Shown here: one piece after another, positions 24,507-27,574 of the stretch
Layout: each line of letters opens with the position of its first letter
How positions within the stretch are numbered: the stretch's first letter is position 1
DNA from: Ignavibacteriales bacterium
Lineage (GTDB): Bacteria > Bacteroidota > Ignavibacteria > Ignavibacteriales > Ignavibacteriaceae
Assembly (NCBI GenBank): GCA_020061465.1
Contig: JAGUYG010000037.1
Span: 1 to 64,000, forward strand
DNA: 64,000 bases
Reading direction: 5' to 3'
Notes under the pieces: model-generated
Databases searched by the model: none
Seen by the model: the letters and a program-made list of their open reading frames with translations, nothing else
Told to the model about the DNA's origin: nothing
Position numbers and translations under genes: made by a program

Positions 24507-26684
24507 TTAATGAACAATTTTACCGTTTATAATCTCTTCGGCTATTCTTTTTGCTTTATACAAATCCTTTATTGTTTCAAGAATACCCTGTGAGGCGACG
24601 GAAATCATTCTATTTTCCGTAGTATCGAATATGAAATAACCCGAGTTACTTTCGATGTTGCCGTCAAAAGCTAATCCGATAATTTCTTTATTCTTATTGA
24701 TAACAGGACTTCCGGAACTGCCCCCAACTATATCATGCGTGCTTATGAAATTAAACGGAGTTTCTAGATCGAACTCCTGAGGGGGAGTTTGCCATCGCGT
24801 CGGAAGACTCCAAGGATATTTTTTATTGAATGAATAATAACGATCGTACATTCCGTAAAAAGTTGTAATTTCCGGGGCAATAGTTCCATTATAATCATAA
24901 CTCTGAAGGACTCCATCGCTTATTCTCAAGGTGAATGATCCATCGGGCGGAATTGAAGTTCCGTATACTGCGTAAATTGCATGCCCTAAAAGCTCCTCAA
25001 AATTTGCTTCTGTTGCATTTATTTCTTTGGCTAACTTTTGAATTTCTTCATAACGGTCCTGAGTCTTCACAACAAACGAAATGAAAGGATCATCAGAACT
25101 TAATATTGCTTTTGGTCCCGCTTCTATTAAACCCTTTACATATTCGGATGAGTTTAACTTGGAATTAGCGAGTAAGTAATTTACGGCTTCATCCCTTTTT
25201 CTTCCCCCAATTAAACTTTTCACAAGAGGATGTTCTTCACCTAAAAATGTTCTCAATAACCCAACATGGATTCTCAATTTTTTATCATTCAATGGTTTAT
25301 CGAATTTCAAAGGAAATACCTTATCGATAGTGCTGCTCAGGTTATCACTCTTGTATGCATCGCTTCTCTCATCCTCGGGAATTTGTAATTCATTAGCAAG
25401 ATTAACAATCTTATAGGCGATATTAAAATACTCTGAAGTCATAGGAGGGGTTCTTAGCATGGTGTAATATTCATCTGCAATTTTTCTCATTTCGTTTCTA
25501 GTACTTGCAATATTATCCCAAACATTGCCGTATTGCCTTTTCAATTGGGAGTTGGATTCAACTGCATCTCTAAGATTATTTTCGAAATCTTTTTTTCTTG
25601 CCATGTAATAAGGATTACTCAAGCCGCTAAGAATTCCTTGATACCGTTTAGCTCCGTTTGCAGCACCGGATAATCTATCTATCAACTCGTCGTATCTCTC
25701 GGGGTACTCATCAATTAGCTCTGTATAAATATTTTGCAGTTCGGTGGCAATAAAAGCACTGCTTCGTGTAGAATAATCTCTCATAAATTCTAGCTGTGAA
25801 AAAGTTTTTAACTTGCTGGTATTGCCGGGATTTCCGACAACAAAAAGAGGCTCGTTCGGTTGTGCTCCGTTTTTACTCCACTTAAAATAATTATTTATCT
25901 TGAGCGGGTTACCATCTTCGTCGTAAGCTCTCCAGAGCGTAAAGTCGAGGCAGTAACGCGGATAGGTGTAATTATCGTAATCGCCTCCAAAAAGCCCGAC
26001 TTCGGATTCGGGCATTAAAACTAAGCGTACGTCGGTATATCTTTTGTAGCCATATAAAGAATATCTTCCTCCCTGGTATAGAGAAACCACATTATAATTA
26101 AGGTCTGTATCCGGATACTTGTTCTTAAGCTGTCTGATTATTTTGCTTTTATTTTCTCTTTTTTCTTCATCCGTTTTACCTGCGGCAATTGCTGCATGAA
26201 CTTCCTCGGTAACATCTTCAATAAAAACGAGCTGATCAACGAAGACACCTTCGTCTCTCCTTTCATCATCAAGTGCTTCTGCTATGAACCCATTTTTTCT
26301 AACACTTTCATCTTCTTTTTCGACTTTTGGTATTCGAAAATCGGAACAATGATAGTTAGTTAAAATTAATCCGTCTTCAGAAATAAATGAAGCAGAACAC
26401 CAGTTTGCAAATTTAAGCGAAGCCATTCTTACATCTGTAAGCCATTCATCAGAAGGATGGAAATTATAATTTTCGGCAAAGTAATCGAGCGGCGGAAAGT
26501 CGAAAGTCCACATTTTGCCGGTATCAAATTCTTGTGCCTTAACCGTATCGAGCAGTATCCCTTTATAAATCGCTGCAGTTTCTATTCTGTAGCTGCCGGT
26601 TTGCTGTGTAACCGAACAGCCGGCTAAAAATATAAATATGCCGGTAACGGAAAGCTTAATTTTATACATAGTTAAGAAGTTCAT
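24507..26684 (-). CDS. S46 dipeptidyl-peptidase, DPP7-type
   Basis: 725-residue lipoprotein (LAGCSVTQQ) of peptidase family S46, which removes dipeptides from the N-termini of peptides in the periplasm or at the outer membrane. His112 in TNYHCSDF and Ser657 in GGSSGSPVIN are the catalytic pair visible directly. The residue that sets specificity, in LAFDGNIES, is Gly675, as in DPP7 (hydrophobic P1), rather than the Arg of DPP11 (Asp/Glu P1). This implies growth on proteins or peptides. Family members occur chiefly in Bacteroidota and some Proteobacteria. Confidence 0.94.
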   Translation of the reverse strand: MNFLTMYKIKLSVTGIFIFLAGCSVTQQTGSYRIETAAIYKGILLDTVKAQEFDTGKMWTFDFPPLDYFAENYNFHPSDEWLTDVRMASLKFANWCSASFISEDGLILTNYHCSDFRIPKVEKEDESVRKNGFIAEALDDERRDEGVFVDQLVFIEDVTEEVHAAIAAGKTDEEKRENKSKIIRQLKNKYPDTDLNYNVVSLYQGGRYSLYGYKRYTDVRLVLMPESEVGLFGGDYDNYTYPRYCLDFTLWRAYDEDGNPLKINNYFKWSKNGAQPNEPLFVVGNPGNTSKLKTFSQLEFMRDYSTRSSAFIATELQNIYTELIDEYPERYDELIDRLSGAANGAKRYQGILSGLSNPYYMARKKDFENNLRDAVESNSQLKRQYGNVWDNIASTRNEMRKIADEYYTMLRTPPMTSEYFNIAYKIVNLANELQIPEDERSDAYKSDNLSSTIDKVFPLKFDKPLNDKKLRIHVGLLRTFLGEEHPLVKSLIGGRKRDEAVNYLLANSKLNSSEYVKGLIEAGPKAILSSDDPFISFVVKTQDRYEEIQKLAKEINATEANFEELLGHAIYAVYGTSIPPDGSFTLRISDGVLQSYDYNGTIAPEITTFYGMYDRYYSFNKKYPWSLPTRWQTPPQEFDLETPFNFISTHDIVGGSSGSPVINKNKEIIGLAFDGNIESNSGYFIFDTTENRMISVASQGILETIKDLYKAKRIAEEIINGKIVH

Positions 26685-26933: not shown

Positions 26934-27245
26934 CTATATATAAGAATCCGGTTGGTACAAGGGTTCTACTTCCCACTCATCTTCAATAGTTCCGACGCAA
27001 TGCGAACATTTCGGAACAGTGAATACAACCTTCTCCTCGTTAGGGGCAGCCCTAACAAAATTTAGTATCGTTCTACAGCTTGAACACTGAACAATATGAG
27101 AAGTAATTGTTTTTGCGCTGCATTCAGGACAAATAAATCCCAACTCTCCGGGTGTTTCTTCAGGATTCACCAGAAATATTGAGTTACATTTAGAATTGTT
27201 GCATTTAGCGAAGTGCCATTTAACAGTATCTATAGTAGCGATAAT
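26934..27245 (-). CDS. Zinc-ribbon protein, probable non-AUG start
   Basis: Small protein with CNNSKC, CPEC, CSSC and CSHC pairs, suggesting two zinc ribbons. An in-frame GTG at 27170 gives 78 residues but loses the first cysteine pair and has no ribosome binding site. The frame stays open upstream and encodes TIDTVKWHFAKCNNSKCNS. A strong Shine-Dalgarno (AGAGGGAG, 27250-27257) sits 4 bases before ATT (27245) and 7 before ATC (27242), so initiation at an ATT/ATC codon is proposed. Function unknown. The C-terminal half is acidic (IEDEWEVEPLYQPDSYI). Confidence 0.7.
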   Translation of the reverse strand: MIATIDTVKWHFAKCNNSKCNSIFLVNPEETPGELGFICPECSAKTITSHIVQCSSCRTILNFVRAAPNEEKVVFTVPKCSHCVGTIEDEWEVEPLYQPDSYI

Positions 27246-27433
27246 CCTACTCCCTCTGATATTTGTGACGAAACATAAATACTTAGGTATAAAAAGTAAA
27301 TTGAAAAAAAATTCTCTTATAAATTTTTACATTGCCCTCCAATCGGCTGACAAAATTTATAAATAAATTTGTTATCTTAAAAGGGAATAATAAAACTTAA
27401 ATTACTTTTTTAATTTTCAGAGGAGTCATACGG

Positions 27434-27574
27434 ATGGATAAAATTAACTGCTTTAAAGCCTACGATATACGCGGAAAAGTTCCCGAAGAATTGAACTCCG
27501 GACTAGATATAAATGAACAAATAGATAGAGTATTTAAGCAAAAAATTTATATATTTATTCACAAAAAATTTTAG
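27434..27574 (+). pseudogene. 5' remnant of a phosphomannomutase/phosphoglucomutase gene
   Basis: An ATG preceded by AGAGGAG encodes MDKINCFKAYDIRGKVPEEL, the typical N-terminus of bacterial phosphomannomutase/phosphoglucomutase (KAYDIRG motif). After about residue 21 (27496) similarity stops and the frame ends at 27574 (46 codons). The remaining 430 or so residues of a normal enzyme are not found downstream, on either side of the adjacent gene cassette. I infer a gene cut by insertion or recombination. The retained translation start, and presumably its promoter, may now drive the cassette. Confidence 0.75.

Follow-up and report, generated by a model that had tools for sequence, protein, structure and literature searches.

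Evidence for an AUC start codon, retained across the order Ignavibacteriales, on the gene of an eight-cysteine zinc-ribbon protein

The window (the whole stretch of DNA that was analysed, 64,000 nucleotides from an Ignavibacteriales bacterium) carries on its minus strand a reading frame that is open from stop to stop at 26934-27326. The first ATG, GTG or TTG codon within this frame is a GTG at 27170 (27168-27170, minus strand), which leaves 78 codons. Read from the ATC codon at 27242 (27240-27242, minus strand), the frame provides a gene of 102 codons plus a TAG stop (26934-27242, minus strand), whose product of 102 residues contains eight cysteines and is termed here the zinc-ribbon protein. 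A Shine-Dalgarno (SD) sequence, AGAGGGAG, occupies positions 27257-27250 of the same strand; an ATT codon (27245-27243) follows 4 bases on and the ATC (27242-27240) 7 bases on, in agreement with the spacing given in the original prediction, which had been made from the letters of the window. Downstream and on the same strand lies the gene of an S46-family peptidase (24507-26684, minus strand; Pfam PF10459, E 1.1e-166), a neighbour that is conserved in 81 of 99 distinct loci. On the other side, positions 27434-27505 (plus strand) hold a 24-codon remnant of a divergent phosphomannomutase-like gene, matching the first 24 residues of a relative 448 residues long (locus L032) at 88% identity; the rest of the gene is missing in the window, where unrelated sequence follows the 24 codons (region 27434-27574). 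A phosphomannomutase-like gene is the divergent neighbour in 85 of the 99 distinct loci, and no full orthologue was found elsewhere in the window's own genome, the best other match having 33% identity. The conserved synteny gives no function for the zinc-ribbon gene.

A search of 97 genomes, comprising the window's own and others from its family and order, detected relatives of the zinc-ribbon protein in 87, the window's own among them, and further matches occur at 37 loci of contigs labelled Ignavibacteriales, Ignavibacteriaceae, Ignavibacterium, Ignavibacteria, "Bacteroidetes bacterium" or similar. The start region was read in 86 of the 87 positive genomes, the fragmentary one (G055) being left out. 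A phylum-wide sample of 395 genomes yielded a match in 38, namely 37 from the same order and a marginal one (G187; E 3.8e-4, within an 811-residue frame), and at the search sensitivity used the family looks order-specific. Altogether, the 124 zinc-ribbon loci represent 99 distinct sequences, 97 of which have a residue at the column aligned with the ATC of the window. The cysteines C14, C19, C38, C41, C53, C56, C79 and C82 are invariant in an alignment of 40 rows.

Database comparisons of the protein gave just weak zinc-ribbon or zinc-finger echoes in Pfam and NCBIfam, from which no function follows. All 13 Pfam matches of the window protein were below their cut-offs; the Double zinc ribbon (DZR, PF12773) matched 17 of 40 family members with a best E of 0.00047. 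The NCBIfam model TIGR01053 (LSD1-type zinc finger domain) scored 17.2 bits against a cut-off of 15.5 (E 0.0029), over just positions 2-17 of its 31, and matched 11 of the 40 members at E up to 1. Matches to solved structures were likewise weak (best E 0.0094) and point to no function, and an AlphaFold2 model built on a 14-row alignment was of no use (mean pLDDT 35, pTM 0.20). Our guess is that a small zinc-ribbon regulator, or a nucleic-acid or ribosome binder, is the likeliest identity of the protein.

The coding boundary was assessed by pN/pS in 69 loci that were picked for an ATC and exactly 102 codons, using pairs of at least 75% identity; the pairs lack independence, and, since having the ATC was a condition for inclusion, its zero changes are uninformative. 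The ratio is 1.18 over the 14 codons upstream of the ATC; within the gene it falls to 0.41 in codons 2-9 and 0.06 in codons 10-25, with 0.13 in codons 26-102. Constraint at the protein level therefore starts at or just after the ATC. The segment that a start at GTG 27170 would discard is, by these values, the most constrained part of the protein. It includes C14 and C19, the first Cys-x4-Cys pair, and no SD-like stretch could be seen by eye ahead of the GTG; the original prediction was right on both counts, having argued that a GTG start loses one CxxxxC pair and lacks a ribosome binding site. Among the homologues, the column of this GTG is a valine column of mixed codons (GTT 33, GTA 20, GTG 11) preceded by strongly constrained sequence, and not the place where they begin. 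The occurrence of relatives in 87 of 97 genomes, the invariance of C14 and C19 and the preservation of the ATC in 77 of 97 sequences together show that this is not a chance frame.

At the column aligned with the ATC of the window, the 97 distinct sequences have ATC in 77 cases, ATA in 9, ATT in 3, ATG in one and other codons in 7, so that ATH (ATC, ATA or ATT) accounts for 89 of the 97. Isoleucine codons elsewhere in the family are distributed as ATT 387, ATA 166 and ATC 141, ATC thus making up 20% (141 of 694). The preceding codon varies (GTT, GAT, ATT, AAT, ACT and others), as does the following one (GCT, GAA, GTA, GGA and others), and neither flanking codon is therefore a fixed point. At the level of single bases, T occupies position -1 in 80 of the 89 ATH rows and G position +4 in 80 of the 97 distinct sequences. 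The alignment with homologues that had been proposed as a check places the N-terminus at the ATC. Of the two starts originally offered, ATT or ATC, the second stands on its conserved column; the ATT at 27245 was rejected, since its column varies among the homologues. A sequencing error in place of an ATG, which had also been envisaged, is excluded, because ATG occurs at this column in just one of the 97 sequences (L121). On this comparative evidence the zinc-ribbon gene almost certainly begins at AUC (27242).

The AUH start is kept across at least three families of the one order, and a poorly resolved tree of the start-codon states requires at least 13 changes. In a few lineages the start has changed to ATG, or from it, with the ATG lying at the start column in L121, upstream of it in L120 and two codons downstream in L090 and L091. 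In the latter two (genomes G032 and G007), an out-of-frame ATC GAA TGA, spaced from GGAG in the usual way, overlaps the in-frame ATG two codons past the usual start site; this could reflect either a naturally occurring change to ATG or a very short upstream reading frame. Some of the seven rows with other codons look shifted by one codon (in L084 an ATA is adjacent), and L123 is disrupted; in L113, L122 and L100 the start has no clear position. Three sequences from a single genus, g21 (L074, L075 and L076), have other codons at the start column and no clear AUH start. After GGAG they read ATTATAAAGACG, ATTACAAAAACG and AATACAGAAACG, respectively, and in L076 the stretch from TAG to the conserved His-Phe contains no in-frame ATN codon. 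The sole near-cognate codon common to the three is ACG, and an ACG start is possible in them.

A good SD at the proper spacing characterizes the family. The median energy of the duplex with the anti-SD is -7.4 kcal/mol in 87 homologues, and 86 of the 87 reach -4 kcal/mol or below. In 33 of the 89 ATH rows, that of the window included, the stretch from the upstream stop to the ATH holds no in-frame canonical codon. A further 36 rows have one at most 21 bases upstream, usually overlapping the SD (GTGGAG, ATGGAG), and 20 rows have one only beyond -21; many of the far upstream ATGs are the ATG inside a TATGTTT element. The family thus combines an AUH start across species (89 of 97) with no conserved canonical start.

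The TATGTTT element, near -34, resembles the -7 box of Bacteroidetes promoters, for which the consensus TAnnTTTG is described (PMC7366714). In the window the candidate -7 box is TATGTTTC (27270-27277, minus strand). TA plus three of the four letters of TTTG occurs at -40 to -26 in 67 of 88 homologues, as against 15.6 in shuffled sequences (maximum 23 in 100 runs). The TAnnTTTG score by itself is weak (5 or 6 matches in 85 of 88 stretches versus 68 of 88 in shuffles), and only the fixed position sets the box apart from the shuffles. A second candidate box, TTTTTTCAATT (27299-27309, minus strand), with the pattern TTTTTnCATnG, lies at about -65, some 32 bases upstream of the first, and is conserved across the order: within two mismatches it is present at -72 to -57 in 82 of 88 homologues, compared with 6.3 in shuffles (maximum 14). 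Neither the window nor the genome contains it as a recurring motif, and it could represent a regulator site or the -33 element of a strong promoter. If the two boxes do form the promoter, the leader would be only about 20 bases long and the far upstream ATGs would be untranscribed.

The original prediction had noted that non-AUG starts of this type are documented mainly for infC, the gene of initiation factor IF3, and the parallel proved stronger than claimed, as the infC genes of these same genomes start alike. In 41 genomes of the order, infC begins with ATC in 34, ATT in 5 and ATA in one, with one unclear case (G009), and in 40 of the 41 no canonical codon is in frame upstream. The infC of G009 (L139) is alone in having no ATH at the aligned start column; it reads AAA there and has an in-frame TTG 27 bases upstream. 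The genes behind infC, rpmI and rplT, have an ATG start in 41 of 41 genomes each, the S46 peptidase neighbours an in-frame ATG in 81 of 81 and the divergent phosphomannomutase-like neighbours an ATG within ten codons in 79 of 79; non-AUG initiation is therefore gene-specific and not general in these bacteria. Median SD energies are -7.1 kcal/mol for infC (40 genes), -4.1 for rpmI (41) and -6.4 for rplT (41). T at -1 occurs in just 20 of 41 infC genes, versus 80 of the 89 zinc-ribbon rows. The start codons of infC and of the zinc-ribbon gene do not change together, which speaks neither for nor against joint control.

Two further surveys concerned the window's own genome. The initiator-tRNA pattern GGGCTNATNACCC occurs at two places, of which ARAGORN calls one as tRNA-Met(cat) and leaves the other uncalled; both carry the anticodon CAT, and an exotic initiator tRNA was accordingly rejected. 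Two motif shapes, which do not exhaust the possible contexts, were used to scan for other SD-preceded ATC starts, with candidates judged independently of homologue comparison: GAGG N3-8 ATCGC gave 63 matches versus 32 with a reversed-pattern control, and GGAG N5-8 TATCGM gave 50 versus 24. A stop close upstream (within 150 and 180 bases, respectively) together with at least 30 codons was present in 12 of 64 and 9 of 50 contexts, and the two scans revealed no convincing ATC genes besides infC and the zinc-ribbon gene. Matches to these SD-spaced ATCG patterns outnumber those of the controls about two to one; most lie inside or outside genes and are not start-like.

This kind of start is already known from infC, pcnB, sigR, cvfC1 and ccpN. 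Like the zinc-ribbon gene, infC of the same genomes combines an AUC, AUU or AUA start with a strong SD and no in-frame canonical start; the zinc-ribbon protein is unrelated to IF3, so that IF3, if it controls the gene, would do so in trans. In Streptomyces, sigR is described as having a GTC start that is repressed by IF3 and conserved within the genus (GTC 32 of 34, GTT 2; PMC5472188). It is likewise a non-infC gene with a conserved non-canonical start, and in that account its annotated canonical codon overlapped the SD, as do the GTG or ATG of many zinc-ribbon relatives; the two differ in codon (GTC versus ATC) and in breadth (Streptomyces-wide versus order-wide), and an IF3 effect is reported for sigR only. 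By its description, the nearest known system in flavour is staphylococcal cvfC1, which encodes a putative zinc-finger protein of 61 residues and has an AUU start conserved in staphylococci (PMC13009471). Both have a small zinc-finger-type product, a conserved AUH start and a strong SD; cvfC1 differs in size and phylum, and in having a measured output, AUU and AUA starts being reported to give about 10% of AUG expression in Staphylococcus aureus (PMC13009471). The same source gives an AUA start for ccpN in S. aureus and Bacillus subtilis, again a conserved AUH start with an extended SD on a non-infC gene, which encodes a transcription factor of another family. The Escherichia coli pcnB gene (AUU start, as cited in PMC9410913 and PMC1780047) is also a non-infC gene limited by its start; it encodes a poly(A) polymerase, with no zinc ribbon. 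No report of an AUC start in Ignavibacteria or in the zinc-ribbon family was found in the open-licence literature. The novelty lies in one more member of the kind, belonging to an unnamed protein family and retaining its AUH start order-wide.

Sequence comparison shows the N-terminus, the SD, the infC parallel and the conservation of an AUH start codon, mostly AUC; control of the zinc-ribbon gene by IF3 is inferred. In E. coli infC, IF3 represses non-AUG starts of this type. The strict infC-type autoregulation mentioned in the original prediction would not apply, because the eight-cysteine protein is not IF3; the window's genome carries its own infC (G000:C122). Repression by IF3 is the natural reading. 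Ordinary fMet-tRNA(CAU) would initiate at the AUC with a mismatch at the third base. A U at -1 is able to pair with A37 of the initiator tRNA, and the strong SD and the T just ahead of the AUC might partly compensate for the weak codon. IF3 would reject the mismatched complexes, keeping the zinc-ribbon protein low, and the level would rise whenever 30S subunits outstrip the supply of IF3. Selection would have preserved the weak start because the protein is needed at a low dose, or at one that tracks translation capacity. We consider this whole explanation, an AUC start with low-yield initiation, IF3 repression and retention for a low or capacity-linked dose, to be probably correct.

The AUC could alternatively be a fixed low-expression setting only, as in pcnB, with the level of IF3 playing no regulatory part. 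The roughly 10% expression from non-canonical starts in S. aureus and the absence of a medium effect on the cvfC1 AUU, both as reported in PMC13009471, agree with such a setting, as does the failure of the zinc-ribbon start to co-vary with that of infC; the resemblance to infC in start codon, SD and retention across the order, and the IF3 repression reported for the sigR GTC (PMC5472188), speak against it, and we regard it as rather unlikely. It is very improbable that the conserved ATC is part of an overlapping DNA or RNA binding site, initiation occurring on whatever weak codon is there: the T before and the G after it are also common, yet ATA or ATT replaces it in several lineages, as in infC, and its flanks vary. 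A start upstream of the ATC, at the in-frame ATG, GTG or TTG of many relatives, would reduce the ATC to an ordinary isoleucine codon. Some such codon is present in 56 of the 89 ATH rows, within 21 bases in 36 of these, but the 33 rows that lack any include the window, the near ones overlap the SD and the far ones sit in the candidate promoter; with a pN/pS of 1.18 upstream, and ATC held in 77 of 97 sequences while only 20% of isoleucine codons elsewhere are ATC, this reading is scarcely credible. A start at GTG 27170, the earliest canonical codon in frame and the place where a gene caller limited to ATG, GTG and TTG would put it, can practically be dismissed, given the pN/pS of 0.06 in the lost codons 10-25, the invariant C14 and C19, the mixed valine codons and the missing SD.

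Returning to an AUC start repressed by IF3, a wider and distinctly speculative extension, which we think improbable, is a two-gene IF3 circuit in Ignavibacteriales, wherein their shared AUC-type starts would let infC and the order-specific zinc-ribbon gene rise together when IF3 is short. The zinc-ribbon protein would then be a lineage-specific initiation or ribosome factor dosed by IF3, whose eight cysteines might also respond to zinc or redox state.

Very few bacterial genes other than infC are documented to have non-canonical start codons, and gene callers limited to ATG, GTG and TTG truncate or miss such genes. Comparison of the start column with internal codon use, together with the pN/pS boundary, offers a cheap way to find more of them. 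In the present family, retention across at least three families makes the question of why a bad start codon is kept directly testable, with infC available in the same genomes as a natural comparison. Retention across the order points to the start codon itself as a means of limiting or controlling production of the zinc-ribbon protein.
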